Of a stretch of 64,000 nucleotides of DNA, positions 29,820 through 57,646 are shown piece after piece. The notes beneath the pieces were generated by a model that was not told where the DNA came from, made no database searches, and worked only from the letters and a program-made list of their open reading frames with translations. Source of the stretch: Chloranthus sessilifolius (taxonomy: Eukaryota; Streptophyta; Magnoliopsida; Chloranthales; Chloranthaceae); contig CM037591.1 of NCBI GenBank assembly GCA_021018995.1, forward strand, positions 7,880,001 to 7,944,000. Direction: 5' to 3'. The translations under genes were made by a program, and so were the position numbers. Numbering within the stretch: the first letter of the stretch is position 1; the number at the start of each line of letters is the position of its first letter.

Positions 29820-29828
29820 TACTATTTA
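29820..29828 (+). repeat. Left 9-bp target-site duplication, TACTATTTA
   Basis: It abuts the GGGAAATTTGCAC terminus of MULE A. The same 9-mer in the same orientation follows the outer terminus of MULE B at 57638-57646. Confidence 0.85.
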
Positions 29829-30144
29829 GGGAAATTTGCACTTTCGGCCCTATATGTTTGCGTATTTACAGAAACAGGCCTATAGTTTCAATCCTTGCAT
29901 AAATGGCCAGCTCCAAGCCTAGCCGCGTGCACGTCAGATATCTATATATATGCTTCTCTATGCAAGTATTGAATCTAGAATTTTTATATCATTTTTTAAC
30001 AATTTTTATCTCTCTTTGAAAGCGATTTCGAGATTCCATTAAAGGTCGTATTTCCCTAGAGAATACAACAGGCTAGGTAAGATATCGAGTACAATATCTT
30101 TTAAGTTATTGTTTTCCCAATTTCTCAAAACATTGTAGGTAGTC

Positions 30145-30342
30145 CAAGATATCGTCCGATATCATAAGTTATCGACCGATATCTTAAGTTATCGACCGAT
30201 AACTTAAGATATCGACCGATATCTTAAAAGGTCTTTTTTTTAAGTTTTTGGATTATGGTTTACGTTAAAAGTCCATCCATCAGCTATATATCTTAGGATA
30301 TCGGCCCGATATCTTAGGATATCGAGCGATAACCTATGATTG
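30145..30342. repeat. MULE A palindrome array 1, in the putative 5'-leader intron of mudrA
   Basis: Cores such as ATCGTCCGAT and ATCGACCGAT are spaced about 20 bp, joined by linkers like ATCTTAAGTT. There are four cores plus two more after a spacer. The array lies between a donor-like CTAG|GTAAGA (about 30075) and an acceptor-like TATTGTAG (about 30468), so it is probably intronic. Confidence 0.85.
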
Positions 30343-30473
30343 ACAAAAACTCTAAAGTTTTTATTCCTTTAATTTTTTTAATAATATTTTTAAACAATTG
30401 TAGCGCTAAGTCAAGTATAACTCTTTATAAACAACTAATTTTAATTTTAATTTTATAAATATTGTAGGTTGAA

Positions 30474-33067
30474 ATGGATGTTCCTCTTCTTTGCCATTTT
30501 GATTTCATACGCGTGAGAGATAATACTTACAACGGAGGACATCGGAGGATTGTCACTGTCACGGAGAATATATCATTTGATGAGTTAATAGAGAAAATGT
30601 ACAAAGTCACAACTTGGAAGAACATTCTATTACACTTCTTGTTTCATTACGCATAGGGAATGAGCTTGTATTTGCCAATTGTCCGACTCAGATCTTACAA
30701 ACTTATTTAGAGCATATCGTATCGGTGATGGTGTTATAAATATTTATATCGAAAAATCATTAGTCACTACTGTAGCAGAAATTTTGCCGTCTTTAGAAAC
30801 ATTTCAACCGTTTAAGGAAACAAACGAAGATGATCATGGTGTGGGAACAGAACATTTGATTGAAAATCAAGGAATACGGTATGAAGAGGAGAACATTGTT
30901 ACACCGATAATAGAAATATAAATATAGGATTTCGCCCCTACAGTAAACTTCCAGAGCAACCCTATTCAGACATTCCGATGAGTGAAGGCGATGAAGATCA
31001 AGGATATTCTCATCAAATGAATCTGATGCATGATACATCTCAATTCAACTTCGATTCGGTAAATCAGTGGGAAACGTTTTTAGTCGGCCTTAGTCCATAT
31101 CAATGGCCTTCCGAACAAATAGCTTCGGAGCCAACGATAATCGAGCCTTCAACAGAACAACCTCTCATACATCAAATATTCTCGCATCGGCTAACATCAA
31201 TTCAAACAACTGCACATCAACCAAGCGTACATCGACGGGCTCAATCCCAATCACGTAATAACCATCCAGTCGATGATGGTGATAGTGATCCTGAAAATAA
31301 TGAAGCCCCGCCGTCTCCCACTTCGCGTGTTTATACTAATAGGGGAATTGATCAACCTCTGGTGGACGAAGACTATCAGCTTAATGACTCGGAAGGGGAG
31401 TATATGGATTCAGACGATGAGGAACTGTATGAAGGGGGAACGATTACCATTGGTCAGGCGTTTAGAAATAAGAAATCATTTCAAAAAGTTCTTAAAGAAT
31501 TTGCGATGACAAATAATTTTCAGATTAAACCAATAAAAATCAGTCATCTTCGAGTAACTGCGAGGTGTGTTGAAGTAGGATGTGCTTGGCGAATACATGC
31601 ATCGAAATTAGTAGGCGTAGACACGTTTGCTGTGAAAACTTTTCACCCGGAACACACGTCTATGAATGCCGCTTTGAAGCGGACATCGCCAATGTACGAC
31701 ATCGTGGATAGCTTCATTCGTTAGAGATAAGCTATTAAAGGATTTTGATGACACTCCTGCTTCAATAATTTTGATATTGAAAAAATACAGATAACGAGTT
31801 CTTTGGAAAACATGGAGAGGGAAAGAAATGGCGTTGAATGACATCCGAGGTAATTGGAATGAGCAATTTAAGTTGTTACCGTCCTATGTTGCCGAATTAC
31901 AATGGTCGATCCGCATATTCTGACCGAATTGTGTCTCGAGCCCGATAATGCATTTAGATTCTTCGTGGCATTCGGACCTTGCATTGAGCTTTCGTAATAC
32001 TTTAAGAATAATTATGTAGATGGAACGCATTTGCATGGACGATATAAGGGAGTGTTGTTAATAGCTACGGGATAGACGGAATAGACATTTATTTCCTATA
32101 GCGTTCAAGCGTATCGAAGAAAATGAAGACCATTGGACATGGTTTCTTGATCTATTAGGAGACGTGTAATCGGTGAATTTGAAGAAACGGTTTGTTTTGA
32201 TATCGTCAGTAAAGGTTTGATGGAAACAAAGGAAAAGTTTTTCCTAATGCCTTTCACACCATCAGACACTTGATAAATATAAGGATACAATCTCTAGACC
32301 GCTTTTCTAGGTTGTCTTTGCGCATTTTCGAAGCAAAATTTAAAAGAATTATGAAAAATAGAAGACGACGCCTACCGAATGTACAAAATGGATTAAAGAA
32401 ATTGGTGATCATTTCGGCACGCGCTTATTTCAAGGGAGGCGTTATGATATGTTGACAACTAATATAGTGAAAGCATAAATAGTGTGTTGAAAATAGCAGG
32501 AGGAACCGATTGTGAGCATGTTAGAAACTATTAAAAGTAGTCAAATTTTATCTTCGTCGTGGAGGAAGGAAATAAAATGACACATGTGTTAACAACATGG
32601 CGTAAAAAACACATAAAAAGAAATTCAGGATGGGCCCGTCGAAAAAATGTCATACCATATGGTCGTGATATATTTCAAGTTAAACGTGGTGATTACACTC
32701 ACAGTGTCGATCTAGAATCGCGAACATGTACATGTAGACGTTGGGCTATTCTTGGATTACCATGTTCACATGCGATTGCCGCATTATCGCTACCAAAAGA
32801 AAAGAGAAGACCCAATTTTGTGAACACTGGTTTACCAATGACTTATTTAGGGAAACTTATAAAGAACACTTTGTCCCGACCGTTGACAAGCGCCAATGGA
32901 CTTCGCAAATAAAAGACATTCAAGTTTTGCCTCCCCACAAAATACGTCAAGCCGGCCGTCCGAAGAAAAGGAGAACAAGATCTATAGGGGAAGTTCGACC
33001 ACTACAATGTAAAAATTGTAACAAGTATGGTCATAATCGTCGCTCGTGTAAATTTGTTAATATTTGA
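30474..33067 (+). pseudogene. mudrA: mudrA-type transposase, MULE A (broken)
   Basis: The start MDVPLLCHFDF lies just after an acceptor. An acidic, low-complexity N-terminal part follows. Next is the MuDR DNA-binding domain, ITIGQAFRNKKSFQKVLKEF (about 31440-31500) with CVEVGCAW and later H-P-E-H, a WRKY/GCM1-like zinc-finger layout. The catalytic domain is only patchy here (VDGTHLHGRYKG near 32020). The C-terminal part keeps the SWIM zinc finger CTCRRWAILGLPCSH (about 32725-32775) and a CCHC knuckle CKNCNKYGHNRRSC (about 33010-33050). Frameshifts occur at about 30610-30700, 31680, 31900 and 32400. Unlike copy B, it keeps GEYMDS at about 31400 and GRYKG at about 32040. Confidence 0.9.
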
Positions 33068-33408
33068 AATTAACTTATATTACATCAAAGGTTGAGATTG
33101 AAAACAGATTTAGATTAGATTAGACCTAGTGGCAATCGAGCTTCCAAATGATCTCATTATAGAAGAGTATTTTTTTTTCTCTTTTTCTTTCCTTCAATAT
33201 AAACAGATTAAACCTCAATAAAAGAGCGATCAACATCTACCAATTAATTAATATATTTTTTTGGAATTGTGATTAAAATATATTGTTGTGCTTCTTAATA
33301 AATCATTCATTCATTCAAACAGGATTTGAAGTTGCCAAATTCGCCCCTAATCTACTAGTGATTGGCATAAAGCCAAACCAAAGATATCAGGCTTCACAAT
33401 TCAGAAAG

Positions 33409-33690
33409 GTATATCTTAAATCATCGGCCGATATTTTAAATCATCGACCGATGATTTAAAATACCGGCCGATGATTTAAGATATCGTCCGATAACTTAAA
33501 ATATCGGACGATGATTAAAGATATCGGCTGATAATTTAAATCATCGGCCGATAATTTAAATCATCGGCCGATTACTTAAAATATCGTTCGATTACTTAAG
33601 ATATCGGCCGATGACTTAAATTATCGGCCGATGATTTAAGATATCGGACGATGATTTAAGATATCGGCCGATGATATAAGTCATCGGCCT
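33409..33690. repeat. MULE A palindrome array 2, between the convergent genes
   Basis: Fourteen units with a strict 20-bp period, consensus core ATCGGCCGAT with linker NATTTAARNN. Most cores are ATCGGCCGAT, with variants such as ATCGTCCGAT and ATCGGACGAT. The array lies between the 3' ends of mudrA and the Ulp1-like gene. Confidence 0.93.
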
Positions 33691-33854
33691 ATTGGAATTG
33701 CTTCAAGAGAGGAAGGCTCCATTGATAAATCAGGCAAGGTGATACAAATAAGATAAATAAATTGATAACAACGAAAATGAAAATTATACAAGTTAATAAA
33801 AATTAATAAAATTAAATAATTTACAATTTCATCAAAAAATATCTTTACAAAACA

Positions 33855-36800
33855 CTAAAATTTTTTACAGATATTAACTCTTCTTCCCAAACGTGCACAT
33901 TCGATGTCCGATTTCGGCTCTAAATTGTTGCATATGTTTATCGTCGAAATCAATAGGCCGCTGTTGGGAGAAGTATTCTATATACTTTAAAACGTATACA
34001 CCGCAATCCCAACCGTTTTATTGGATCGGGAGAACGACACTGTTGAACGCCGATACCTTCCACTGTTGATCGAAAGCTGACTTCAAATCGATAGTGTAAA
34101 GAAGGCGCGGAAGGTGATTCAATAGACATTCTTTATGCGCTTCAAACCTTTTTGAGCACTCTCGGTCTGCTGGATCAATTAACTTAATTTCTCGATCAAC
34201 TACTGAAATTATAGCCAACGTCCAATGGCTATGTTTTTGGCTATGCATCGGAAGATAAATCTACACATAAACGGAACCGAAATTTTAAATAATAAATTTT
34301 ATTTAAAAGCCGTTAAATAAAGCGAAGTTTAGTATTCAAAAACGTACCGTTCCACAGTCGATCGCGTGAATTCCGCGGATATTATTTGTCAATAGTGGTT
34401 CCATCGGCTTTGAATTGTTACGAACATTCCATTCGTCACAATAGGCCTGCCACCTATCGAGGTCGCTGAGCGCAGCAATACCTTCATTATCGATATATTT
34501 TTTAAATTTTTTCTCGTCTGCCATAAACAAGGTCTGAAACAGGATAATGTAGTAAGTAAATAAATTAGAAGAAGTTAATCAAGAGTCGTGATTGAAAAGA
34601 CAAATAAAAGAAACAAACGAACTTCCAATAAATATTTGAAACCTTACCAGGGCAGGAACCGAACCACTTTTTCGGCATTAGCCGTAAACATTGAATCGTT
34701 TATAACTTCAAGGACTCTCGAGTATGCGTCGATGACTTCATTGTCGAGCCACGAGCGTCCTTTGAGAACCTTCAAAAGAGCAACTGTGATCTCAATACCG
34801 CTGATAGTATTGACGATCACATTGTTCTCGTTCTCCGGCCGATTCCAAAAACTAAGCATATACTTTTGCTCCATTGATATTGCCTCATCCTCCTCCTCCT
34901 CTACAGCCAATCTTAGTTTTTTTATTAATGCTTTATTGGTCGGAGACTTTCTCTTCTTACGAGCACGCAAGTCATAACCTTCGGCTTCATTTTTTGTAGA
35001 TGATAGTTTCACTATAATTGGTTTTAGTGATGTCGACTGTGACTCACGAGAAGGCTGCGTAAGAGGAGCACCATCATCACCCACATCAACCAAGGGTTGT
35101 TTAGTAGGCTGAGGAGCAGTAGGTTTTGGGGCAGCGGGTTTAATGGCAGTAGATTTATTTGTAAGTTGAGGAGCGGCGGGTTTTGGGGCAGTTGATTGTT
35201 GTCTAGGTGGATGAGCAGAGGGTTTTGGGGCACTTGACTGATGGCTTGGTTGAGGAGCAGTTGGTTTTGGGGCATCGGATCATGGCTTTGTTGAGGAGGA
35301 GCAAGGGTTTTGTTGATGAGTGGTGGGTTGAGGGACAGTTGATTGAGGGTAAGTGGGTGAAGGAACGAAGGTGTCAAAGAGCACAGAGGTTAAAATATTA
35401 TCCTGCATAATTGCAAAAAAATATACATTACAAAAAATAAAAAATAAACTGCACTATCGACGGATAATTTAACTAATCGGTCGATAATTTAAATAGTCGA
35501 TCGATAATGTACATTATCGGTCGATAATTTAAGTTATCGATCGATAATTTACATTATCGACCGATAATTTAAATAGTCGGTCAATAATGTAAATTATCGA
35601 TCGATAATTTAAATTATCGACCGATAATGTAACTTATCGTCCGGTAATGTACATTATCGATCGACTATTTAAATTATCGGTCGATAATGTACATCGTCGG
35701 ACGATAAGTTCCATCTTCGGACGACAAGCTAATTTTGCATTAAGTTGTAAAGAAATGATTTTGTTCTAAATTTGAAAAGTCTTGATTTGATACCTTTCTT
35801 AAATGAGAGATGACCGCATCAAGATCCTTCTGTATTGCTTTATTTTCTTCTTGTAAGGCCTTCTTATCTCTGCCTAGTTGTTCAATGGTGAGTGCTTGCC
35901 CTTTAAGCAGCGTAAATGCACGCCGGAATTCTTTTTTCATTTCTTTTACAGCCATGCGGAGCGTCTTGCATTTTTTTCTTAGCTCCGTTACTTCTTTGGT
36001 TAGGTGCGGTTGCCTAACTGGCTGCTCTCTTGTTGGCTCGGGCCTAATTTCTGGTTTGCCCTTTGGTTGACGTACAACGACTTCAAAATCATCGTTATCG
36101 TCGCTATAATCTTCGTCATCCTCATTGTCGTCATCTCGGCTAATCGGCTCTTCGGCTTTTTCTTCCGGACGTGTTGGATGACTTGGGATATCATCATATT
36201 CATCTATATTTTCTTCGGAGTAAGGCTCTTCTCTTTCTTCGGTCTCTTCCTTCTTATTTTCCATTTCTCTTCGAATCAAAAAGTATCGAACCTATTTATA
36301 CTGTAATTCGTGCTTCTCAACTTCAAGCTCTATAATCACTTTAGACTTAAGAAATTTTTCTCTATATAAATTAGGATTACGGTGAATTTTGGCCTTCCCA
36401 TTTCATTAGCCTTGAAATGGTTCTTTAAGCCCAATAAGAGCGGTGGCATCGCAGAAAGTGCTCAAACGCCCAAATCAGAAGGCGATAGTGCATCCATAGA
36501 TATTGTATTGCCCTTTTCCGACCTTCTCGCCATTTCCTCCCGCCACTCGCTTTTGATATACTATCTAATAAATTATTGTAAACTATCGTGCCCCACGGTA
36601 ACTTGTTGAACTCTTCAATGTTATCTACTAATTTAAGTACTGTATCTACTTCGATATGTGTCCTAAGTAAAAAGAACATACGAAAAATAATAATGACTTC
36701 AAAAATCATCGTTGGATAAATCAACATCAATAATTTCTTCAATACGAGATCTTTTCACGGCTTCCCCAAAAGAATTTGTATCGAATAGTTGTTTCTCTTT

Positions 36801-37091
36801 TACTAAGCAACCTTCTCGCACTCAGTTCCACAAGATGTTGAGGCCTAAAATCAAGGCTATATCGATCCACAGGTGAGTACATTGGTGTTCTTGACCTTGA
36901 AAATATTCTCTTCAACCCAAAAACTTAAAATAGCGTCAACCAAGTCTCCAACGAAACCTAATTTCTCATTCATCCTAAATAGATGACCGAATCAATCATC
37001 CGATATTTTCTTTCTCTCTTCACATAAAGGTATGTAAAATTTCCTAACACCAACTCGAACATTTTCCGATGGGCTTTAGAGTCATGGTCAT
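33855..37091 (-). pseudogene. DUF1985/Ulp1-like cysteine protease gene, MULE A (broken)
   Basis: Minus strand, convergent to mudrA. A DUF1985-like N-terminal part reads NIEEFNKLPWGTIVYNNLL and AIQYLWMHYRL (about 36440-36680). Next come an acidic segment with EDDEDYSDDNDD (about 36090) and a coiled-coil-like stretch (about 35800-35990). A Pro/Gln-rich linker with NPLPQN-type repeats follows (35024-35377), then LRARKKRKSPTNK (about 34960). The C-terminal C48 protease region has HSHWTLAII (about 34210), IDP, the oxyanion Gln in LPIQ and the nucleophile in DCGVYV (about 34000). A TAA codon separates Gln and Cys. The acceptor of the leader intron is lost in this copy. Ulp1 proteins are SUMO proteases; such genes are known as passengers of plant MULEs. 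Confidence 0.85.
35452..35730. repeat. MULE A palindrome array 3, in an intron of the Ulp1-like gene
   Basis: About fourteen 20-bp units, cores mostly ATCGATCGAT, ATCGACCGAT and ATCGGTCGAT with linkers AATTTAAATT or AATGTACATT. It lies between the coiled-coil exon and the Pro/Gln-rich exon. Confidence 0.92.
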
Positions 37092-37185
37092 TTTCAATAA
37101 CTTAGTAGGAATGCAATATAAATAAAAGCAATTAATAAATAAAAGAAGTGATTTTGAAAAAAAAACTACTAATCTTTAACCTCGA

Positions 37186-37263
37186 TAACTTAGTTATCGA
37201 TCGATAATCTAAGTTATCGAATAATTTGTTATCTACGATAACTTAGATTATCGGTAAGTTATC
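37186..37263. repeat. MULE A palindrome array 4, reduced
   Basis: Only two to four recognisable cores remain (ATCGATCGAT and partial forms), against seven or eight in MULE B at 49878-50045. It lies in the putative 5'-leader intron of the Ulp1-like gene. Confidence 0.8.
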
Positions 37264-38145
37264 AGATTAGGTGGGAAACATTGGGGATGACTAAATGTGT
37301 TGAAATGTAAAAAAAATAAATTACCTGGAATTGTAATGTGACCTTTGTGACCTTTTACCGCGTTGTCGCCGCTAAGTCGCCGCTCTCTTGTTTTTTTCAG
37401 AAAAGTTAAACTTAAAAGTAACAGTAACTAATGAAATGTAAAAGTAGCTTTTATACTCTCTGTTAAAGGGCGGTGAAATTTTTTTTTATATATTATTTTA
37501 AATAGGTCCTTGCTGACGTGGAGCAGGCGGAGGCGGCTAGGCGTGGAGCTGATTATTAATGCAACGGTTGAAACTATAGGGCCGTTTCTGCAAATACGTA
37601 AACATATAGGGCCGAAAGTGTAAATTTTTCTTATTCAAATCCCATGCTTTTATTTATAACAAATATATAATTTATTTATTTTTTTATAAGGAATAATTAG
37701 AGAAATATGCCTCAAATATAAACTTTTTAGCAAAGAAGATCTAACTTCAAGTATTTTAGAAAAAAAGTGCTTTCACGGATTTTGGAACTTTAGAAAATCT
37801 TGAAAGAACCTTTTTCAATTAAAAAAAATGGGTTTTTTGCATATACCTCACTTGTTATGATAATATTATAAGAAACCCCCTGAGTTATGAGTATTTATTC
37901 TGCAACCCCTACTTTTGTATTTCTGTTTCATATAACCCCCTGCCATTAACTAGTCGTGAGTTTATGGACGGAAAGCCTATTTTGCCTTTAATGAAACCAA
38001 TATTTTAAAAGTACCACCATTCTAAAAGGCCCTTCATTCATCTATATTTACAAGTCATGCCATTAAAGTTTATCACCATTCTAAAAGGCCCTTCATTCAC
38101 CTTTATTTACAAATCATGCCATTATAATTTACCACTATTCTAAAA

Positions 38146-38767
38146 GGAGTACTTTTAAATCCACCCACAAAATCTTTGAGTTCACCCATGTTGAAACACA
38201 TCGACTGCATTGAATCCAACGATGGAGATTTTTATCGTCCCAATCTTTCATGAGATCGATCTTTAGATCATGGGTGTACCATCAGACGATCGACTTTTTA
38301 TTTCATGTGGTACAGACCCCTAAAAGTGACCTTAATATCAAATTTAAGCATGCACGTGATATTAAGGTCACTTTTTTGAGATGTGTGCCACATGAAATAA
38401 AACACTGGCCGTCTGATGGTACGATCATAATCTCAAGATGGAGATTTTTATCGTCCCAATCTTTCATGAGATCGATCTTTAGATCATGGGTGTACCATCA
38501 GACGATAGACTTTTTATTTCATATGGTACACACCCCTAAAAGTGACCTTAATATCAAATTTAAGCATGCACGTGATATTAAGGTCACTTTTCTGAGATGT
38601 GTGCCACATGAAATAAAACACTGGCCGTCTGATGGTACGATCATAATCTCAAGATCCATCATGTGAAAGATTGGGAGGATAAATGATCTCCATCGTTCGA
38701 TTCAATTCAATCAACGTGTTTCAGCGTGGGTGAACTTAAAGATTCAGTGGGTGGATTTAAAGGTACT
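38146..38767. mobile_element. Hairpin MITE with tandemly doubled core
   Basis: The ends GAGTACTTTTAAATCCACCC and GGGTGGATTTAAAGGTACTC are inverted. The core arms ACCATCAGACGAT and GTCTGATGGT, and AAAGTGACCTTAATATCA and TGATATTAAGGTCACTTTT, pair within each half. Units 38221-38436 and 38437-38652 are direct tandem copies of 216 bp that differ at about four positions. Non-coding; open frames across it are by chance. Confidence 0.85.
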
Positions 38768-38992
38768 CTTCTAAAAGGCTCTTCATTCACTTATAAGATG
38801 GGTGATTCTCCCATTAAAGCATGCCAACGTTTGGATGAATACTCAACCAATGGAGGATTTGTGACACACGATGCAATTATTCTTGAAAAGAAAACCTTCA
38901 ATCTACGTGTTCCACTCAAAATACTCTTTCCTCCAATTTCCTATATGATTCAAGACTCATTTTTAGGAATTGGATTGCCTAACAACGTCTGC

Positions 38993-39530
38993 TTCCATCC
39001 ACCGAATCTTTGAGTTCACCCACGCTAAAACACATTGATTGCATTGAATAAGACGATGGAGATCGTTTAGGCATACCATTAGACGATCAGTGTTTTATTT
39101 CGTAACACACATCTCAGAAAAGTGACCTTAACATCACATATACGGTTAAAATTAATTTTAAGGTCATTTTTTTGGGTGTGTACCACATGAAATAAAAAAT
39201 CAACCATCTGATGGTGCCACCATGATCTCAAGATCCATCGTGTGAAAGCTTGGGACGATAAACAGTCTCCATCGTCCGATTCAAAGGTAATCAACTGGTC
39301 GATGGTGCCACCATGATCTCAAGATCCATCGTGTGAATGGTTGGGACGATAAATGACCTCCATCGTCCAATTCAATGCAGTCAACTGTTTGATGGTGCCA
39401 CCGTGATCTCAAGATCCATTGTGTGAAAGGTTGGGACGATAAACGATCTTCATCGTCCGATTCAATGCAGTCAATGTTTTTCAGCGTGGGTGAACTCAAA
39501 TATTTGGTGGGTGGATTTAAAACTATTCTT
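38993..39530. mobile_element. Hairpin MITE, second copy, with a triple 90-bp repeat
   Basis: Same family as 38146-38767: GAATCTTTGAGTTCACCCAC at the left, GTGGGTGAACTC..GGTGGGTGGATTTAAA at the right. One arm is amplified into three tandem units of about 90 bp starting at 39210, 39301 and 39391 with GATGGTGCCACC. Confidence 0.8.
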
Positions 39531-40252
39531 TTTTGTAAGTGGAGGGGTGGATTTAAAATTACTCTTACCACGTGTAGAGGGTGGCAATTTAGTAATTTAA
39601 TTTTAAAAAGGATAAATATAGTATTTAAGCTATTCTTTAACGGCTGGTTAACCATTTAAAGTACCATCGTTAATGAATGTGTTTTATAAACACCAAAATG
39701 CTAACTCAGGGGGTTTAAAGCAAATAGCTATAATTTGGGGGTTATTTGTAATATCAACATAACTCAGGGGGGTATTTGCAAAAAACCCAAAAAAATAGTT
39801 TTAAAAAAATTATTCTTGTTTCTGAAGTTCCAAAATATGCAAAAGCACCATTCTTCTAAAATATTTGAGGTGAGGTCTTTTTTACTAAAAAGTTAGTTTT
39901 TGAGGCATTGTTTTCTAAAAGTGCCTTATATATAATTTAGAGAGCCCAAACGAGGTGGTTGAACTAGGTGAAGGGCCTAAGTCCAACTCTAGCTTATGAG
40001 ACTCTAAGTTCAGCCTGAGACCAACAATAACCTACCATGCTTGAATTCTTGCATCATACCTGAATTCAACAAGAGCTCCATTGGATTTGGTTCTTAAACT
40101 TTCAAAAGGGAAGTGGAGAATGTGTTTATACTTTATAGAGGAAGCATTCCCTCAATCTTATCCCTCCCCTCTCTAAATACTTTATGTTAATAATTATATT
40201 AGATCATATTTAATATAATTTATTCTAATAAATTATATCTCTATATTAGGAT

Positions 40253-40955: not shown

Positions 40956-40975
40956 GTCATCTTAGCTTAGTTGGT

Positions 40976-45720: not shown

Positions 45721-47415
45721 TAAACTATACTGTTATTTACACTAGTGCATAATATGGATGCAATGCTTGTACTTTGTAACTTCATGATGGAGTCCGAGGA
45801 AGAAGAAGAGATAAGGATGACGACAACGGCAACAATGTTGGCATGTAGAACATTAATGATGATTGAAGCTTTAAATGTTGTTTTTGTGAATTTTTTAATT
45901 TTTAATTTTGTTTTTTTGGAAAGAAAAAAATCAAGGACTTATTGATCAAAGGCGAGGGATAAAAACATAAAATCTTTTCAAAAGATGGCCAGTCGGAGGA
46001 TAAGAGGGCACGGTGGATAACCTTATGACTTTGTGTCTAAGAATTTGGTTGAGAAGTCGACCTGTTACTTTGGTTTATTACGTAGGTTTTAACATTGTGA
46101 TAAATATTATAGTCACTTGTTTTGGGTCATAGGGAGATATTATTGGAATATTTGCCAAATGTGCATGAAATAGTTTATGTGCCACCTGCTAAGGAAATTA
46201 GTATGTGTGGGTCTTATTTTAAAGTGTCAAAAACTATTAACGATGCGTTGGACATCTAGCACCATGTAAATATGGTAAATTTATAATTTTAAAATATTTT
46301 ACAAATTCATTTAATTTTCAATTTAAACTATTGCAAATTATATGTCCATAGACCTAGAAAAATTAGCATTTGCATAAATACTTGTAAAATGTCCTTAGCA
46401 AGTGGGATGAGTGTGGACATCCCACGCTAGGGCATGTCCAACCATCAAATCTTATAATGGTTAATTGGTAAATTTGAAATTTTGGTCAGATCTTTTTGTT
46501 TCATAAGCTCACAGTCCCTCTTAAATCCTAAACTCTAATCTATGGCAGATTTTCTTTTACGAAAATCCAATCATTGTTTTCTTATCATAAGAAAATCATG
46601 ATTTCTGGATAATTCTATTTTTTTGTTTTTCAATCATAAAGAACATTAATCAGATGCTGATAAATCTATGTTTTAATTTTTCATCAAGAAGATGAATATT
46701 GTTTATCTAATTTGTGAGGACAAATACCTCTACCCACTTTTATGGAAAGAAATTTATTCTCCGCTATGCTACATATTTCTTTTGTGCATGGGACTGCCTA
46801 CTTGTCTTCAACAAAGCACAATTAATTTTCTTTTATAGAATTTTTTATGTAGCCAAAAGGACTTGCTAGAAAAAAACATATTCGATTTTTATGCTCATGG
46901 AAATTCTTCTATTTCCATGAGCATAATTTTCAGATCAGTTCTATGTTAAGTCAAATTTTTTATATCATCATTAAGTTTCATAAGATGCATCATTATAATT
47001 TCATATGCATTCTTAATTTCACATGTTGATGGACGCATATAAAAGCATATAGATTAACATAATATAAAGGTGCATATATTATAAAAAGATGGAATATGGT
47101 ATTAAATAAAACACAAAAAAAAAAAGAAACAATTGATAAGGAGGATTTCATGATGAAAAAACAGATAAACGTAGAAAGGAAACCATCAGCAGCCAAATAA
47201 AAAAACATGTAAATAGCCACGTATAAGTTCCTATTTAAAACATTAAATCCAATTCATCTTATCTCAAAGGAGATTAAAAGAAAGTTTCAGCTCAATTTTA
47301 TATTGACTGATTAAATTTGAGAAATCAGCATGAGGAAAGAGATCTCAAATTCCAGGGATGCTGTGGTACCATGTTTCGTGAATCATCTACGATGATAATG
47401 CAAGAGATCTAAGAT
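45721..47415. other. Unassigned AT-rich DNA
   Basis: No gene, RNA or clear repeat recognised. A perfect GAATTTTT..ATGCTCATGGAAATTC/GAATTTCCATGAGCAT hairpin lies near 46890-46925. Confidence 0.4.
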
Positions 47416-47420
47416 GTAAG

Positions 47421-47881
47421 TGTAAGAAGTTTCTATTTTGGTGGCCATCACTATGGTCAAACCCGTTGACCGGTGAATGGTATAAGATCAACCTTAAGAT
47501 GTACAATTGCTATTCTGGTGAGTTTGAAGAGAATAGGCAACTGCTTATTGTGTCTTTCAGTTAAGGTATGATTGTGATTTCTAATTACACTATAATTAGC
47601 AATTTCAGTCCTTAATGGGATAGGACTCTTTGGCTATAAATATAAGGGGTGCCTGGTCCCAACGATAGCTCGACGTAATTCAATCCTCCCTATTGGCGAG
47701 AGCATCCCCATTGTGCTAGGAGACATTGAACGCGAGAACATCGTTGAAGATCGGCAACCATCAATGGCTAATGCTCAAGGTACGCATATTTATAGTTTGT
47801 TGGTTTTTGATTGATCATGCGCCTAGATCTTTAGGCTTAATTTTGGATGGTCGGATCGTCAGATCCATTTAGATTCCATCA
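47421..47881 (+). repeat. 5' LTR
   Basis: 461 bp, TG..CA. Promoter-like GGCTATAAATATAAG near 47631, followed by the presumed transcript start. Confidence 0.93.
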
Positions 47882-48618
47882 ATTGGTATCAGAGTCATGA
47901 TTGGCGTTATGATCGGTCAAAGCTTTAAAGTGAATTTTTTTTTTTTTTGTAATGGCTGTTTTATATAAAAAAAATTTTTTTGGGGTTCTCCCAGCCAACT
48001 TCCGTGGCGGGGCCGAATCCACCGTCGGCTGGTCACCCGGGCATGGTAGCGCGTTGCATGAACTAAAAAAAAAAATTTTTGCTTCTTTGGGCATCCGGGC
48101 CGCAAGTATTTTCCGGCAGAATGCGACGACCGGCCGACGAGACCAACAACCGCACCACGGACCGTCGGCGGTGGCGGGCGAGTGAGGGCGCTTCTGTAAC
48201 AAAAAAAAAAAAAAAAAAAAAAAAATTTGGGGTTTTTGTGGCCGACGGTCCGGCGCCGGTGGCCCTTTTCCGGCCACCGGACTGGCACCGGCCGACTTCC
48301 GGCGCCGGGGCCGATCGGCGATATCACCGGACGCAGTCACCGGTGAGGCGTGGGTTGGCTGAAGTAAATCTTGTTGTAACTAAAAAAAAAAAAAAAACTT
48401 GAAGAAGAAGAAGAAGAAGAAGAAGATATATTGACTAATGAGCGGTCATATATCGATGATCTGATATATTGACTACATTGATTCTGTGTTGAAATTCTCA
48501 CTGGACCGGACTGATAATAAAGACTTTGATTGAGATTGATTGTGACTTACCATTCAAAGAAAGTTAGCTAACATTGGGTAATCGGAGTTTATTGACATAG
48601 TTTGGCCAAGTGGGAGAC
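47882..48618 (+). repeat. Interior of the small LTR element: PBS, GC-rich modules, PPT
   Basis: After the PBS come a T15 run and three modules. Each opens with an A-run passing into T or G/T text (about 47968, 48065 and 48198) and continues with GC-rich CCGGC-type sequence. A (GAA)n run (about 48401-48427) follows. Open frames through it begin or end in homopolymers and look non-coding. Confidence 0.75.
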
Positions 48619-49079
48619 TGTAAGAAGTTTCTATTTTGGTGGCCATCACTATGGCCAAACCCGTTGACCGGTGAATGGTATAAGATCAACCTTAAGATGT
48701 ACAATTGCTATTCTGGTGAGTTTGAAGAGAATAGGCAACTGCTTATTGTGTCTTTCAGTTAAGGTATGATTGTGATTTCTAATTACACTATAATTAGCAA
48801 TTTCAGTCCTTAATGGGATAGGACTCTTTGGCTATAAATATAAGGGGTGCCTGGTCCCAACGATAGCTCGACGTAATTCAATCCTCCCTATTGGCGAGAG
48901 CATCCCCATTGTGCTAGGAGACATTGAACGCGAGAACATCGTTGAAGATCGGCAATCATCAATGGCTAATGCTCAAGGTACGCATATTTATAGTTTGTTG
49001 GTTTTTGATTGATCATGCGCCTAGATCTTTAGGCTTAATTTTGGATGGTCGGATCGTCAGATCCATTTAGATTCCATCA
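48619..49079 (+). repeat. 3' LTR
   Basis: 461 bp, identical to the 5' LTR except at two positions. Preceded by the purine-rich tract CAAGTGGGAGAC. Confidence 0.93.
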
Positions 49080-49084
49080 GTAAG

Positions 49085-49513
49085 TGGTAGAAAATATTTA
49101 ATGTACAAGTAAATAAAAAACCTACTTATGAACAAGGACATAGAGGACTACCAACTAAAAAAAAATCTAGAAATAAAGCTTATCCCTAGGGTGCATACAA
49201 TTGTAAGGCACACATGCATCCAAAACCCTCAAACATGTGTGCACACAGGCACATAAACAAAAGCTAAATAATCTCTTTCACATATACTAATTAGAGGAAA
49301 ATTACTGAACGACGTAGAATACCACCCCTAGAGATCAGAATAATGAAATAAAAGAATCTTATCTTGTGTACATGCACACATACTTTCGAGCTATTCATAG
49401 CAAAAGGCATAAGGGTGGAGTAATTCAAACCCGTTTTCCCTGCGAAGAACGCACTATTTTCCGCCATAAAAAACCGTTAGACTTCCTTGAATCAGGTGAT
49501 GGAGATTGTTTTT
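49085..49513. other. Right end of the cargo segment
   Basis: Continues the sequence interrupted at 47415. The last 30 bp (TTGAATCAGGTGATGGAGAT..) match the beginning of the hairpin MITE family at 41500, cut off exactly where MULE B begins. Confidence 0.6.
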
Positions 49514-49877
49514 GGGAAATTTGCACTTTCGGCCCTATATGTTTGCGTATTTGTAGAAACGGCCCTATAGTTTCAACCGTTGCATTAATAACCAGCTCCA
49601 CGCCTAGCCGCCTCCGCCTGCTCCACGTCAACAAGGACCTATTTTAAATAATATAAAAAAAAAATTTTCACCGCCCTTTAACAGAGAGTATAAAAGCTAC
49701 TTTTACATTTCATTAGTTACTGTTACTTTTAAGTTTAACTTTTCTGAAAAAAATAAGAGAGCGGCGACTTAGCGACGACAAAACGGTAAAAGGTCACAAA
49801 GGTCACATTACAATTCCAGGTAATTTATTTTTTTTACATTTCAACACATTTAGTCATCCCCAATGTTTTCCACCTAA

Positions 49878-50045
49878 TCCGATAAGTTATCGATCGATAA
49901 TCTAAGTTATCGGTCGATAACTTAAATTATCGACCGATAATTTAAGTTATCGGTCGATAACTTAGATTATCGGTCGATAATTATTGACCGATAACTTAGA
50001 TTATCGATCGATAACTTAGATTATCGGTAAGTTATCGGTAGGTTA
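49878..50045. repeat. MULE B palindrome array 4, in the Ulp1 5'-leader intron
   Basis: Seven or eight cores (ATCGATCGAT, ATCGGTCGAT, ATCGACCGAT) at about 20-bp spacing, with linkers AACTTAGATT or AATTTAAGTT. Confidence 0.92.
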
Positions 50046-50130
50046 GGGGATTAGTAGTTTTTTCAAAATCACTTCTTTTATTTATTAATTGCTTTTTATT
50101 TATATTGTAGTTCCTACTAAGTTATTGAAA

Positions 50131-53100
50131 ATGACCATGACTCTAAAGCCCATCGGAAAATGTTCTGAAGTTGGTGTTAGGAAATTTTACATGCACTGTA
50201 ACGAAGAGAGAAAGAAAATATTAGATGATTGATTGGTCATCTATTTAGGATGAATGAGAAATTAGGTTTCGTTGGAGACTTGGTTGACGCTATTTTAAGT
50301 TTTTGGGTTGAAGAGAATATTTTCAAGGTCAAGAACACCAATGTACTCCTGCAACAGATCGATATAGCCTTGATTTTAGGCCTCAACATCTTGTGGAACT
50401 GAGTCCGAGAAGGTTGCCGTAAAGAGAAAACAACTATTCGATACAAATTCTTTGGGAAGCCGTGAAAAGATCTCGTATTGAAGAAATTATTACGATGTTG
50501 ATTTATCCAACGATGATTTTTGAAGCATCATTATTATTTTCAGATGTTCTTTTTACTTAGGACACATACCGGAAGTAGATACACGGTACTTAGAATTAGT
50601 AGATAACATTGAAGAGTTCAACAAGTTATCGTGGGGCCTGATAGTTTACAATAATTTATTAGATAGTATATCAAAAGCGAGTGGCAGGAGGGAAATGGCG
50701 AGAAGGTCAGAAAAGGGGCAATACAATATCTATGGATGCACTATCGCCTTACAGATTTGGGCGTTTGAGCACTTTCCTGCAGTCGCCACCGCTCCTATTG
50801 GGCTTAAAGAACCATTTCCAAGGCTAATGAAATGGGAAGGCCCGAAATTCAGCCGTAATCCTAATTTATATAGAGAAAAATTTCTTAAGTCTAAAGTGAT
50901 TATAGAGCTTGAAGTTGAGAAGCACGAATTACAGTATAAATGGGTTCGATACTTTTTGATTCGAAGAGAAATGGAAAATAAGAAGGAAGAGACCGAAGAA
51001 AGAGAAGAGCCTTACTCCGAAGAAAATATAGATGAATATGATGATATCCCAAGTCATCCAACACGTCCGGAAGAAAGAGCCGAAGAGCCGATTAGCCGAG
51101 ATGACGACAATGAGGATGACGAAGATTATAGCGACGATAACGATGATTTTGAAGTCGTACGTCAACCAAAGGGCAAACCAGAAATTAGGCCCGAGCCAAC
51201 AAGAGAGCAGCCAGTTAGGCAACCGCACCTAACCAAAGAAGTAACGGAGCTAAGAAAAGAATGCAAGACGCTCCGCATGGCTGTAAAAGAAATGAAAAAA
51301 GAATTCCGGCGTGCATTTACGCTGCTTAAAGGGCAAGCACTCACCATTGAACAACTAGGCAGAGATAAGAAGGCCTTACAAGAAGAAAATAAAGCAATAC
51401 AGAAGGATCTTGATGCGGTCATCTCTCATTTAAGAAAGGTATCAAACCAAGACTTTTCAAATTTAGAACAAAATCATTTCTTTACAACTTAATGCAAAAT
51501 TAGCTTGTCGTCCGAAGATGGAACTTATCGTCCGACGATGTACATTATCGACCGATAATTTAAATAGTCGATCGATAATGTACATTACCGGACGATAAGT
51601 TACATTATCGGTCGATAATTTAAATTATCGATCGATAATTTACATTATCGACGAATTTAAATTATCCACGATAATGTAAATTATCGACCGATAATTTAAA
51701 TAGTCGATCGATAATGTACATTATCGATCGACTATTTAAATTATCGACCGATTAGTTAAATTATCGGTCGATAATGCAGTTTTTTTGATTTTTTATTTTT
51801 TGTAATGTATATTTTTTTGCAATTATGCAGGATAATATTTTAACCTCTGTGCTCTTTGACACCTTCGTTCCTTCACCCACTTACCCTCAATCAAGCCCCT
51901 CAACCCACCACTCATCAACAAAGCCATACCATCGCCTCAAAACCCATCGCTCCTCAACAAAGCCATCACAAAGGCTCCAAAACCAATCGCTCCTCAACCA
52001 AGCCATCATCAAGTGCCCCAAAACCCTCTCGCTCATCCACCTAGACAACAATCAAGCGCCCAAAACCCGCTCCTCAACTTACAAATAAATCTCGCCATTA
52101 AACCCGCCCCAAAACCTCACGCTCCTCCCTACTAAACAACCCTTGGTTGATGTGGGTGATGATGGTGCTCCTCTTCTGTGACCTTCTCGTGAGTCACAGT
52201 CGACATCACTAAAAATAATTATAGTGAAACTATCATCTACAAAAAATGAAGCCGAAGGTTATGACTTGCGTGCTCGTAAGAAGAGAAAGTCTCCGACCAA
52301 TAAAGCATTAATAAAAAAACCAAGATTGGCTGTAGAGGAGGAGGAGGATGAGGCAATATCAATGGAGCAAAAGTATATGCTTAGTTTTTGGAATCGGCCG
52401 AAGAACGAGAACAATGTGATCGTCAATACTATCAGCGGTATTGAGATCACAGTTGCTCTTTTGAAGGTTCTCAAAGGACGCTCGTGGCTCGACAATGAAG
52501 TCATCGACGCATACTCGAGAGTCCTTGAAGTTATAAACGATTCAATGTTTACGGCCAATGCCGAAAAAAGCTGGTTCGCTTCTGCGTCTGCCCTGGTAAG
52601 GTTTCAAATATTTATTGGAAGCTCGTTTGTTTCTTTTATTTGTCTTTTCAATCACGACTCTTGATTAACTTCTTCTAATTTATTTACTTACTACATTATC
52701 CTGTTTCAGACCTTGTTTATGGCAGACGAGAAAAAATTTGAAAAATATATCGATAATGAAGGTATAGCTGTGCTCAGCGACCTCGATAGGTGGCAGGCCT
52801 ATTGTGACGAATGGAATGTTCGTAACAATTCAAAGCCGATGGAACCACTATTGACAAATAATATCCGCGGAATTCACGCGATCGACTGTGGAACGGTACG
52901 TTTTTGAATACTAAACTTCGCTTTATTTAACGGCTTTTAAATAAAATTTATTATTTAAAATTTCGATTCCGTTTATGTGTAGATTTATCTTCCGATGCAT
53001 AGCCAAAAACATAGCCATTGGACGTTGGCTATAATTTCAGTAGTTGATCGAGAAATTAAGTTAATTGATCCAGCAGACCGAGAGTGCTCAAAAAGGTTTG

Positions 53101-53387
53101 AAGCGCATAAAGAATGTCTATTGAATCACCTTCCGCGCCTTCTTTACACTATCGATTTGAAGTCAGCTTTCGATCAACAGTGGAAGGTATCGGCGTTCAA
53201 CAGTGTCGTTCTCCCGATCCAATAAAACGGTTGGGATTGCGGTGTATACGTTTTAAAGTATATAGAATACTTCTCCCAACAGCGGCCTATTGATTTCGAC
53301 GATAAACATATGCAACAATTTAGAGTCAAATCGGACATCGAATACGTGCGTTTGGGAAGAAGAGTTAATATCTGTAAAAAAATTTAG
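50131..53387 (+). pseudogene. DUF1985/Ulp1-like cysteine protease gene, MULE B (near-intact but broken)
   Basis: Inferred exons: 50131-51438, 51831-52595, 52710-52895 and 52983-53387, each with GT-AG borders. Start MTMTLKPIGKCSE. A DUF1985-like region (about 50200-50800) ends in GCTIALQIWAFEHFPAVAT. Then an acidic stretch (about 50990-51150), a coiled coil (51235-51435), a Pro/Ser/Gln-rich linker, LRARKKRKSP (about 52266), and the protease domain: HSHWTLAII (about 53010), IDP, LPIQ (about 53213), DCGVYVLKYIEYF (about 53235). A TAA stop (53223-53225) sits between the oxyanion Gln and catalytic Cys. Frameshifts occur near 50215-50560 and 51900-52200. By homology a SUMO-type isopeptidase of the kind carried by plant MULEs; its role in transposition is unknown. 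Confidence 0.85.
51500..51778. repeat. MULE B palindrome array 3, in an intron of the Ulp1-like gene
   Basis: About fourteen units. It lies wholly inside the intron 51439-51830 (donor AAAG|GTATCA, acceptor TTATGCAG). Cores ATCGACCGAT, ATCGATCGAT and ATCGGTCGAT, linkers AATTTAAATT or AATGTACATT. Confidence 0.93.
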
Positions 53388-53551
53388 TGTTTTGTAAAGA
53401 TATTTTTTGATGAAATTGTAAATTATTTAATTTTATTAATTTTTATTAACTTGTATAATTTTCATTTTCGTTGTTATCAATTTATTTATCTTATTTGTAT
53501 CACCTTGCCTGATTTATCAATGGAGCCTTCCTCTCTTGAAGCAATTCCAAT

Positions 53552-53925
53552 AGGCCGATGACTTATATCATCGGCCGATATCTTAAATCATCGTCCGATA
53601 TCTTAAATCATCGGCCGATAATTTAAGTCATCGGCCGATATCTTAAGTAATCGAACGATATTTTAAGTAATCGGCCGATGATTTAAAATACCGGCCGATG
53701 ATTTAAATTATCGGCCGATGATTTAAATTATCAGCCGATATTTTAAGTTATCGGACGATATCTTAAATCATCGGCCGGTATTTTAAATCATCGGCCAATA
53801 TTTTAAATCATCGGCCGATATTTTAAAATATCGGCCGATAATTTAAATCATCGGCCGATGATTTAAGATATCGGCCGATGATTTAAGATATACCTTTCGG
53901 CCGATGATTTAAGATATACCTTTCT
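53552..53925. repeat. MULE B palindrome array 2, between the convergent genes
   Basis: About eighteen units, mostly ATCGGCCGAT cores with 20-bp period, against fourteen in MULE A. The last unit is duplicated with an inserted ATACCTTTC. Confidence 0.93.
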
Positions 53926-54262
53926 GAATTGTGAAGCCTGATATCTTTAGTTTGGCTTTATGCCAATCACTAGTAGATTAGGGGCGAATTTGGCAACTTC
54001 AAATCCTGTTTGAATGAATGAATGATTTATTAAGAAGCACAACAATATATTTTAATCACAATTCCAAAAAATATATTAATTAATTGGTAGATGTTGATCG
54101 CTCTTTTATTAAGGTTTAATCTGTTTATATTGAAGGAAAGAAAAAGAGAAAAAAAAAAAATACTCTTCTATAATGAGATCATTTGGAAGCTCGATTGCCA
54201 CTAGGTCTAATCTAATCTAAATCTGTTTTCAATCTCAACCTTTGATGTAATATAAGTTAATT

Positions 54263-56943
54263 TCAAATATTAACAAATTTACACGAGCGACGATTATGAC
54301 CGTACTTGTTACAATTTTTACATTGTAGTGGTCGAACTTCCCCTTTAGATCTTGTTCTCCTTTTCTTCGGACGGCCGGCTTGACGTATTTTGTGGGGAGG
54401 CAAAACTTGAATGTCTTTTATTTGCGAAGTCCATTGGCGCTTGTCAACGGTCGGGACAAAGTGTTCTTTATAAGTTTCCCTAAATAAGTCACTGGTAAAC
54501 CAGTGTTCACAAAATTGGGGGATCTCTCTTTCTCTGTTTCGGCGCGATAATGCGGCAATCGTATGTGAACATGGTAATCCAAGAATAGCCCAATGTCTAC
54601 ATGTACATGTTCGCGATTCTAGATCGACACTGTGAGTGTAATCACCACGTTTAACTTGAAATATATCACGACCATATGGTATGACGTTTTTTCGACGGGC
54701 CCATCCTGAATATCTTTTTATGTGTTTTTCTGCCATCGGTGTTAACACATGTGTCATTTTATTTCCTTCCTCCTGACGACGAAGATAAAATTCGGCTACT
54801 TTTGTGCGAATAGTTTCTAACATGCTCACAATCGATTCCTCCCTGGCTATTTTCAACACACTATTTATGCTTTCAGCTATATTAGTTGTCAACATATCAT
54901 AACGCCTCCCTTGGAAATAAGCGCGTGCTCATAAATGATCACCAATTTCTTTAATCCATTTTGTACATTCCGGCGGGGCGTCGTCTTCTATTTTTCGCAT
55001 AATTCTTTTAAATTTTGCTTCTGAAAATGCACGGGCAGCAACCCAGAAAAGCGGTCTAGAGATTGTATCCTTATATTTATCAAACAGATTTAGATCCAGG
55101 TGTCGCATACAGTAGCTGTGAAAGGCATTAGGGAAAACTTTTTTCACTGCTTCCATCAAACCTTTCTGTCTGTCTGATATCAAAATAAAATGTTTTTCAA
55201 ATTCACCGATTACACGTCTCCCTAATAGATCAAGAAACCATGTCCAATGGTCTTCATTTTCTATTTCTTGAGCGCTATAGGAAATAAATGTCTATTCCCG
55301 TCTATCCCCGTAGCTATTAACAACACTCCCTTATATCATCCATGCAAATGCGTTCCATCTACCACAATTATTCTTCGTAAAGTATTACGAAAACTTCGAA
55401 TGCAAGGTCCGAATGCCACGAAGAATCTCTGAAATGCATTATCAGGCTCGAGACACAATTCGGTCTGTATGTCTAGATCGACCCGTTGTAATTCGGCAAC
55501 ATATGACGGTAACATCTTAAATTGCTCCTTCCAACTACCTCGGATGTCATTCAACGCCATTTCTTTTCCTCTCCATGCTTTCCAAAGAACTCATCTTTGT
55601 TATATACCGTATTTTTTCAATATAAAAATTATTGAAGGTGAGTCTCGTCAAAACCCTTTAATAGTTTATCTCTAACGAATGAAGCTATCCACGATGTCGT
55701 ACATTGGCGATGTCCGCTTCCAAAAGCTGGCATTCCGCGCGTGTGTTCCGGGTGGAAAGTTTTCACAGCAAACGTGTCTACGCCTACTAATTTCGATGCA
55801 TGTATTTGCCAAGCACATCCTACTTCAACACACCTCGCAGTTACTCGTAGAGGACTGATTTTTATTGGTTTAATCTGAAAATTATTTGTCATCGCAAATT
55901 CTTTAAGAACTTTTTGAAATGATTTCTTATTTCTAAACGCCTGACCAATGGTAATCGTTCCCCCTTCATACAATTCCTCATCGTCTGAATCCATATACTA
56001 CCCTTCCGAGTCATTAAGCTGATAGTCTTTGTCCACCAGAGGTTGATCAATTCCCCTATTAGTATAAACACGCGAAGTGGGAGACGGCGGGGCTTCATTA
56101 TTTTCAGGATCACTATCACCGTCATCGACTGGATGGTTATTACGTGATTGGGATTGAGTCCGTCGATGTACGCTTGGTTGATGTGCAGTTGTTTGGATTG
56201 ATGTTAGCCGATACGGGAATGTTTGATGTATGAGAGGCTGTTCTGTTGAAGGCTCGATTATCGTTGGCTCCGAAGCTATTTGTTCGGAAGGCCATTGATA
56301 TGGACTAAGGCCGACTAAAAACGTTTCCCACTGATTTACCGAATCGAAGTTGAACTGAGATGTATCATGCATTGGATTCATTTGATGAGAATATCCTTGA
56401 TCTTCATCGCCTTCACTCACTAATGTCCGAATAGGGTTGCTCGGAAGTTTCTTTGTGGTAAAATCCTATATTTATATTTCTATCATCGTCGGCTATTATC
56501 GGTGCAACAATGTTCTCCTCTTCATACCGTATTCCTTGATTTTCAATCAAATGTTCTGTTCCCACACCATGATCATCTTCGTTTGTTTCCTTAAACGGTT
56601 GAAATGTTTCTAAAGACGGCAAAATTTCTGCTACAGTAGTGACTAATGATTTTTTGATATAAATATTTATAACACCATCACCGATACGATATGCTCTAAA
56701 TAAGTTTGTAAGATCATCAGAGTCAGACAATTCGGCAAATACAAGCTCATTCCCTATGCGTAATGAAACAGTAAGTGTAATAGAATGTTCTTCCGGTCGT
56801 GTCCGACTGACTTTGTACATTTTCTCTATAAACTCATCAAATGATATATTCTCCGTGACAGTGACAATCCTCCGATGTCCTCCGTTGTAAGTATTATCTC
56901 TCACGCGTACGAAATCAAAATGGCAAAGAAGGGGAACATCCAT
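54263..56943 (-). pseudogene. mudrA: mudrA-type transposase, MULE B (broken)
   Basis: The better of the two transposase copies. N-terminal part MDVPLLCHFDFVRVRDNTYN; a DNA-binding domain with GQAFRNKKSFQKVLKEFA and CVEVGCAWQIHASK (about 55800-55950); a catalytic domain with D in VDGTHLHG (about 55345), D in LISDRQKGL (about 55175) and a likely E in NIAESINSV (about 54885); SWIM finger CTCRHWAILGLPCSH (about 54590); CCHC knuckle CKNCNKYGHNRRSC (about 54300). Lesions: a 2-bp deletion near 56415, nonsense TAG after NDSEG (about 55998), TGA for CGA after THLHG (about 55338) and TGA after GDHL (about 54929). MULE A has the sense base at the TAG site and at the first TGA site. Confidence 0.92.
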
Positions 56944-57079
56944 TTCAACCTACAATATTTACAAAATTAAAATTAAAATTAGTTGTTTATAAAGAGTTAT
57001 ACTTGACTTAGCGCTACAATTGTTTAAAAATATTATTAAAAAAATTAAATGAATGAAAACTTTAGAGTTTTTATCAATC

Positions 57080-57315
57080 ATAGGTTATCGCTAGATATCC
57101 TAAGATATCGGGCTGATATCCTAAGATATATAGCCGATGGATGGACTTTTAACGTAAACCATAATCCAAAAACTAAAAAAAAAAATCTTTTAAGATATCG
57201 GTCGATAACTTAAGATATCGGACGATATCTTAAGTTATCGGTCGATAACTTAAGATATCGGTCGATAACTTAAGATATCGGACGATATCTTAAGATATCG
57301 GACGATAACTTATAT
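57080..57315. repeat. MULE B palindrome array 1, in the putative mudrA 5'-leader intron
   Basis: Six cores (ATCGGTCGAT, ATCGGACGAT) plus two decayed ones near 57095-57135. It lies between the ATG exon acceptor (about 56949) and the donor CTAG|GTAAGATATC (about 57392, minus strand). Confidence 0.9.
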
Positions 57316-57637
57316 ATCTTGGACTACCTACAATATTTTGAGAAATTGAGAAAACAATAACTTAAAAGATATTGTACTCGATATCTTACCTAGCCTGTTG
57401 TATTCTCTAGGGAAATACGACCTTTAGTGGAATCTCGAAATCGCTTTCAAAGAGAGATAAAAATTGTTAAAAAATGATACAAAAATTCTAGATTCAATGC
57501 TTGCATAGAGAAGCATATATATAGATATCTGACGTGCACGCGGCTAGGCTTGGAGCTGGCCATTTATGCAAGGATTGAAACTATAGGGCCGTTTCTGCAA
57601 ATACGCAAACATATAGGGCCGAAAGTGCAAATTTCCC

Positions 57638-57646
57638 TACTATTTA
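57638..57646 (+). repeat. Right 9-bp target-site duplication, TACTATTTA
   Basis: Perfect direct match to 29820-29828. It abuts the outer terminus of MULE B. Confidence 0.85.

Follow-up and report, generated by a model that had tools for sequence, protein, structure and literature searches.

Two inverted Mutator-like elements and their gene-bearing interior inserted as one unit in Chloranthus sessilifolius

Mutator-like elements (MULEs) make 9-bp target duplications, and small Pack-MULEs capture genes. How, then, do two full-length MULEs come to share one target duplication, with a whole gene between them? This question is raised by a stretch of 64,000 nucleotides of the Chloranthus sessilifolius genome (the window; C8:7880001-7944000), in which inverted elements A and B enclose an interior of 11.9 kb. 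By searching the 2.17-Gb assembly (32 sequences), we located the donor of this interior on the same chromosome. A, B and the interior inserted as one unit bounded by a single 9-bp duplication, and we propose alternative transposition, using two like MULE ends, as its probable origin. The unit consists of the following features.

29820..29828, plus strand: left 9-bp target duplication TACTATTTA, by sequence match
29829..37630, plus strand: MULE A (7,802 bp), with the L (transposase-side) end facing outwards at 29829 and the R end, its tip decayed, at 37630
37631..37639, plus strand: TTATTCAAA flanking the inner end of A; at the donor a single copy without a MULE (from C8:26886232, minus strand)
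37631..43697, plus strand: tract 1a, copy of C8:26880518-26886232 (minus strand), 149 differences in 5,704 aligned bases
42232..43647, plus strand: UDP-glycosyltransferase (UGT) open reading frame, 471 codons, uninterrupted, by UDPGT match
43698..43760, plus strand: filler of 63 bp replacing 4,009 bp of the donor (C8:26876509-26880517)
43761..45921, plus strand: tract 1b, copy of C8:26874349-26876508 (minus strand), 15 differences in 2,160
45919..45921, plus strand: GAA microhomology at the fusion of tracts 1 and 2, common to both donor ends
45919..49513, plus strand: tract 2, copy of C8:26858622-26861048 (plus strand), opposite to tract 1; 19 differences in 1,932, long terminal repeat (LTR) element excluded
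47421..49079, no strand assigned: small LTR retrotransposon (1,659 bp) inside tract 2, with a 5-bp duplication GTAAG at 47416-47420 and 49080-49084
49505..49513, plus strand: ATTGTTTTT flanking the inner end of B; at the donor one ATTGCTTTT, no MULE (C8:26861040-26861048)
49514..57637, minus strand: MULE B (8,124 bp), with the R end facing the interior at 49514 and the L end facing outwards at 57637
57638..57646, plus strand: right 9-bp target duplication TACTATTTA, by sequence match

One target duplication around two elements

The two copies of TACTATTTA lie on the same strand and touch the outer ends of A and B without a gap, as a preliminary description of the window had reported. The terminus GGGAAATTTGCAC... 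of A directly adjoins the left copy, and the mirror of GGGAAATTTGCAC... in B adjoins the right one; a third TACTATTTA in the window, at 8540, is unrelated. We looked for a separate duplication of A or of B at the inner and outer flanks, and neither element has one; the inner ends border unrelated sequences, TTATTCAAA for A and ATTGTTTTT for B, again as described. The probability of a chance match of the outer 9-mers is 3e-5 given the base composition and 2e-4 given position weights, and that of a match between any two of 16 family 9-mers is 9e-4 from composition alone. The target duplications of the family are A/T-rich, so a coincidental match is likelier than it would otherwise be. Among unrelated family flanks, exact matches were found in 0 of 182 L-R cross pairs and in 0 of 120 pairs in the geometry of A and B, and matches with at most one mismatch in 3 and 1 of these pairs, respectively.

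A query of 587 nt joining the two outer flanks, with which we looked for a paralogous empty site, returned among its best 40 of 1,790 candidates the two flanks themselves at 100%, otherwise partial repeat matches at 77%-86% and two short ones at 70%-71%. One partial match (L029; 77%, query 71-316) crosses the joined-flank junction and was given little weight. A dispersed repeat at 29610-29813 and 61980-62060, which we take to be SINE-like (SINE, short interspersed nuclear element), contains a tRNA B-box-like GGGATTTGAACTC, ends near the left insertion junction and has many copies elsewhere at about 77%-82%.

Both elements are MULEs with terminal inverted repeats (TIRs). MuDR-type transposase domains (PF03108, PF10551 and PF04434) score over the cut-off: A has the MuDR DNA-binding domain and the SWIM zinc finger, B these two plus the MULE transposase. 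The L and R ends match over 102 bp at 89%, and the 9-bp duplication recurs across the family: it is exact in 10 of the 14 full-length copies that have both ends in the stretch (16 were fetched), or present in 12 of 14 counting L023 (10 bp) and L020 (end shifted by one base); of the others, L014 has one mismatch and L021 only 6 bp. On the opposite strand, B has a plant-mobile-domain match at 33.1 bits, under the cut-off of 34.9, and an Ulp1 (C48) match to PF02902 (E 0.001, 19.4 bits), under the Pfam cut-off of 20.7.

A and B are identical at 7,423 of 7,761 aligned bases (95.6%; 338 substitutions and 75 gap runs), and the 98%-99% identity of their two longest arms is only local. Among 16 full copies they are sisters (SH-aLRT, a Shimodaira-Hasegawa-like approximate likelihood-ratio test, 100) and exclusively share 16 sites, the highest count of 120 pairs, with the runner-up at 13. 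This sisterhood is provisional because the 14 other copies were chosen by their likeness to the 5' end of A (best 40 scored of 2,758 candidates), a list that missed B itself. Strictly mutual best matches between A and B occur in 5 of the 26 segments compared; gene conversion between them, though conceivable, was not retained as the source of their identity mosaic. Both elements contain tandem arrays of 20-bp units (ATCGRCCGAT-type), at 30126-30247, 33331-33752 and 35404-35785 in A and at 49839-50030, 51457-51790 and 53478-53979 in B; one such array coincides with an 86-bp gap between A and B.

The outer ends are L-type in both elements, at 31 of 32 diagnostic columns in A and all 32 in B, in agreement with the earlier suggestion that the outer pair of ends had been used. 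That suggestion had drawn on decay of the inner terminus of A, where 3 of the 13 outermost bases indeed deviate from the family majority; none does so in B. The L and R ends show no diagnostic difference in their outermost 63 columns.

A rearranged copy of a donor locus

To locate the interior (37631-49513) elsewhere, as the preliminary description had proposed for the 37.6-49.5 kb segment, genome-wide queries covered 42000-45600 (best 40 of 353 candidates scored), 45900-47415 (7 of 7) and 49080-49513 (best 40 of 215), the last two in place of a query with 45600-49520 that was dominated by the LTR element (best 40 of 3,234); 37600-42000 was compared with the donor only (through L049). Among the matches scored, the only other near-full copy lies at C8:26.858-26.886 Mb, 19 Mb away; the donor sequence read excludes C8:26862549-26873169. 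With 45900-47415, matches beyond the window and the donor reach at most 78%; with 42000-45600, there are a copy of the gene on C14 at 91% and paralogues on C13 at 80%-81%.

Homology of tract 1 begins immediately past A, at window 37631, and extends to 45921; its donor counterpart is read on the minus strand from C8:26886232 to 26874349. Tract 2 has the opposite orientation and loses homology at 49513, the last base before B. The donor edge of tract 1 reads CATATA-TTATTCAAA-TCCC and is free of a MULE; that of tract 2 has one ATTGCTTTT, followed by DNA unlike a MULE. Both donor sites are therefore empty in the assembly. Since the limits of the duplicated interior coincide to the base with both inner termini, the MULEs and the interior form one unit, independently of the target duplication. 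The two tracts are not adjacent at the donor, and the 13.3 kb between them is absent from the composite. Projected onto the plus strand of the donor, the two elements would form direct repeats 25.2 kb apart (B at 26861048, A at 26886232), with the R end at the lower and the L end at the higher coordinate in each. Both captured tracts flank their elements on the R side, and tract 1 is confined to the interval between the would-be element sites.

The direction of copying can be read at the filler break. About 1.5 kb of the skipped 4,009 bp stands beside the gene in the C14 paralogue (C14:11.62 Mb) at 85%-87% identity, so the donor order is the older one there. As this paralogue has the donor arrangement past 43697, the composite is ruled out as the ancestor of C8:26.86-26.89 Mb; the paralogue is uninformative on the fusion at 45921. 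A genome search with 43690-43775 for the source of the filler matched the window alone (1 of 1 candidate), a result that is no proof of rarity.

The cargo differs from the donor at 183 of 9,796 bases (1.9%), less than A from B (4.4%), which indicates that A and B separated before the interior was copied, provided that rates were equal in MULE and cargo DNA; a copying of B from A within the insertion event is disfavoured by the same comparison. The differences from the donor are spread unevenly: 97 of 4,185 bases (2.3%) in 37631-42130, 4%-7% per bin with many 1-2 bp gaps in 42131-43130, and 38 of 4,659 (0.8%; bins 0-2.7%) beyond 43130.

The LTR element in tract 2 has 461-bp LTRs that are 99.57% alike and is absent from the donor; thus, it most likely inserted after the copying. 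It belongs to a high-copy family (TG...CA; 39 other scored copies at 97%-98% over the inner part, the best of 3,234) and contains TGGTATCAGAG, presumably a primer-site-like motif. At C8:26859737-26860303 (L051), the donor has two stretches, one partly repeated, that are lacking in tract 2, and they may reflect either expansion at the donor or contraction in the copy. A repeat of about 100-350 bp is found in direct and inverted copies, about 66%-97% alike, in the cargo (38137-39542) and just outside B (58420-58890), and the loci on C13 and C14, like the donor, have similar sequence.

A proposed alternative transposition and its rivals

We consider that the unit arose as a composite insertion by alternative transposition (rough probability 0.55; this figure and the grades given below to block transposition and gap repair are judgements, not computed likelihoods). 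Initially, C8:26.861 and 26.886 Mb would have been occupied by two MULEs of the same family, directly oriented and about 25 kb apart; these positions are derived from the junctions since the reference donor is empty. The transposase would have paired two L ends that belong to different elements, that of A and that of B, and inserted them into a target 19 Mb off on the same chromosome. Joining of these L ends would have left the single duplication of TACTATTTA that is observed. Synthesis from the target would then have copied each element and gone on into the DNA beside its R end, reaching 11.9 kb into the donor from A and 2.4 kb from B, presumably as re-replication in S phase. Afterwards, both forks would have aborted and their ends been joined at the 3-bp microhomology seen at the junction, while the 4.0-kb deletion and the 63-bp filler may have formed at this joining or later. 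The LTR element, absent from the donor, would have inserted after the copying.

Several features favour this model. There is one shared target duplication and none per element, and the interior homology stops exactly at inner termini whose donor sites are empty. Both flanks are R-side flanks of would-be direct elements at one locus, 25.2 kb apart, with tract 1 inside the interval. The microhomology junction, the L-type outer ends and the older donor order at the filler break point the same way. Moreover, the model needs only two nearby elements and one event, and it explains the common, retained donor on the same chromosome.

It is also reminiscent of known systems, which we compared through excerpts of the articles cited. 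In the composite insertions of maize Ac/fAc (Zhang et al. 2014, PMC4270019), each of two elements contributes itself and a stretch of its own flank within one target duplication; junctions have 4 bp, 3 bp or no microhomology, or arise by recombination, and those insertions for which the excerpt gives a size measure 14.3-23.6 kb, except for P1-rr-T24, a product of about 5.0 kb with an intact Ac. The present unit likewise fuses two same-family elements with their own flanks (one 4.0-kb internal gap in tract 1) by a 3-bp GAA junction, in a similar size, on the chromosome of its retained donor. It differs in its 9-bp MULE duplication (8 bp for Ac/Ds), in its two full-length elements 19 Mb off, read from an assembly rather than from screened alleles, and in its geometry: two like L ends, direct at the donor, leave the flanks inverted to each other, whereas facing 5' and 3' ends react in the reversed-ends composites of maize. 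Alternative transposition of a MULE was proposed in 2025 for VANDAL21 in the soma of Arabidopsis met1 (PMC12312487), again with two nearby elements and with breakends almost all on the same chromosome; there, the elements are head-to-head, and the excerpt describes somatic chimeric reads too short to resolve every event and every target duplication. In a citrus case (PMC4334395), a MULE with dissimilar target duplications flanks a 2-Mb deletion, in which the authors, in the excerpted text, saw no match to alternative transposition.

Some observations weigh against alternative transposition. Its two-element precursor is derived from the junctions, and the assembly has no MULE at either donor site. 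It requires two like ends in direct orientation, in contrast to the facing 5' and 3' ends of maize, and spans 19 Mb, compared with 13 kb to 1.7 Mb for the duplication and insertion breakpoints given in the maize excerpt (PMC4270019). A single event would not be expected to leave such uneven divergence from the donor unless haplotypes had mixed, conversion had occurred, the donor gene had decayed or the donor assembly contained errors; any of these could be the source. In addition, an R-derived tip on B may be present, since the outermost 63 columns are not diagnostic.

The preliminary description had offered two routes, movement of A, B and the middle as one macrotransposon or growth within a single insertion by ectopic gap repair. 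The single insertion event stands; movement of an intact block does not, at least against the reference donor, where the tracts are opposite in orientation and separated by 13.3 kb that the composite lacks. A rearranged donor haplotype could restore it: an inversion of 15.7 kb (C8:26858622-26874349), with A and B inserted, would place the two elements inverted around exactly this interior, with a breakpoint that is the fusion at 45921, and the block could then have moved by its outer L ends, leaving the single duplication. Excision of a 28-kb Ac macrotransposon, a large unit likewise set by the outer ends of two elements, is documented in an excerpt on maize (PMC9910405), although the interior here is a rearranged copy and not an intact block of the reference donor. 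We regard this route as unlikely, though a serious competitor, because the extra inversion is absent from the reference donor and two insertions, an inversion and a block transposition are all required. Gap repair, in which the broken ends of a MULE resident at TACTATTTA would have copied A, donor DNA with skips and then B by ectopic template switching, appears less likely still. The filler, the 4-kb skip and the microhomology switch suit such copying, and the excerpted work on animals favours gap repair for most single-copy Pack-TIRs (PMC8277862). Nevertheless, it is less economical: the right end must turn from R to L type within its outermost 63 columns, and two invasions must hit elements 25 kb apart among 2,758 first-look family candidates, unless switching was local. 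Furthermore, the greater divergence of A from B than of cargo from donor makes it improbable that such repair copied B from A.

Two independent insertions around resident DNA, with a coincidental 9-mer, are very improbable. With A/T-rich targets a match is indeed likelier, at 3e-5 to 9e-4 by our estimates, but the interior is a copy whose ends fit both inner MULE ends to the base, which contradicts this account, and neither element has a duplication of its own, as against 12 of 14 family copies. An inversion between two separately inserted MULEs is ruled out by reasoning, as the outer 9-mers would then differ. Inverted repeats of 8 kb are difficult to assemble, and the many 1-2 bp gaps in the UGT stretch of the donor resemble assembly errors; yet A and B are 4.4% apart with 75 gap runs, and the interior is unlike the donor in most bins and carries its own LTR insertion, which makes an assembly artefact improbable.

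The cargo gene and what the unit suggests

The uninterrupted UGT frame bears out the preliminary claim of an intact gene inside the unit. Its best solved relatives are an apiosyltransferase, UGT79B30-like enzymes, a phenylethanol rhamnosyltransferase and UGT79G15. Compared with it, the donor copy has 24 indel events (26 listed, two of them end overhangs) and a longest open stretch of 223 codons on the gene strand, and the C14 copy is also broken. On C13, the UGT79-like genes of a cluster (L041-L044, C13:1518036-1552258) share 80%-81% identity with the cargo gene. Of three paralogues examined, two have open frames of 472 codons between stops, and the start region of L041 is in a different frame. 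Over 1,372 sites polarised by C14, or by C13 where C14 is gapped, the composite branch has 4 changes (3 synonymous and 1 nonsynonymous) and the donor branch 45 (10 and 35), with 2 ambiguous. This pattern fits a gene kept in the composite and lost at the donor, where some of the breaks may be assembly errors.

The unit is no Pack-MULE, a single non-autonomous element with a gene fragment. Pack-MULEs, Pack-TIRs and multi-TIR MULEs (PMC8277862, PMC3310237; excerpts) also place TIR-element ends around captured DNA, with junction microhomology in many, but they consist of one element or extra TIRs and often hold gene fragments, in contrast to the two full-length MULEs and the complete frame found here. 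The Ulp1-like stretch of B, on the strand opposite to the transposase, recalls the Ulp1/KIU-bearing MULEs (PMC2528002, PMC13317346), although the excerpts describe KIU in MULEs lacking TIRs, whereas the present elements have long TIRs and an Ulp1 match under the cut-off.

Flank-copying alternative transposition was previously known from selected maize Ac/fAc alleles (PMC4270019) and had been proposed for MULEs from somatic reads (PMC12312487), as the excerpts describe; among the matches listed in open-licence PubMed Central literature, we found no resolved composite insertion of MULEs. At the present locus, a natural MULE case, the donor can be read together with the target duplication, the internal fusion and both junctions. 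It offers a search template, namely duplicated DNA with edges at the inner ends of two MULEs that share one outer target duplication. Tentatively, MULEs might be able to use two like (L) ends of direct repeats to produce composite insertions that are inherited and that duplicate complete genes along with the DNA around them, and a transposon pair may here have relocated a functional gene whose donor copy has decayed. This suggests a route of whole-gene duplication unlike the capture of gene fragments by Pack-MULEs.

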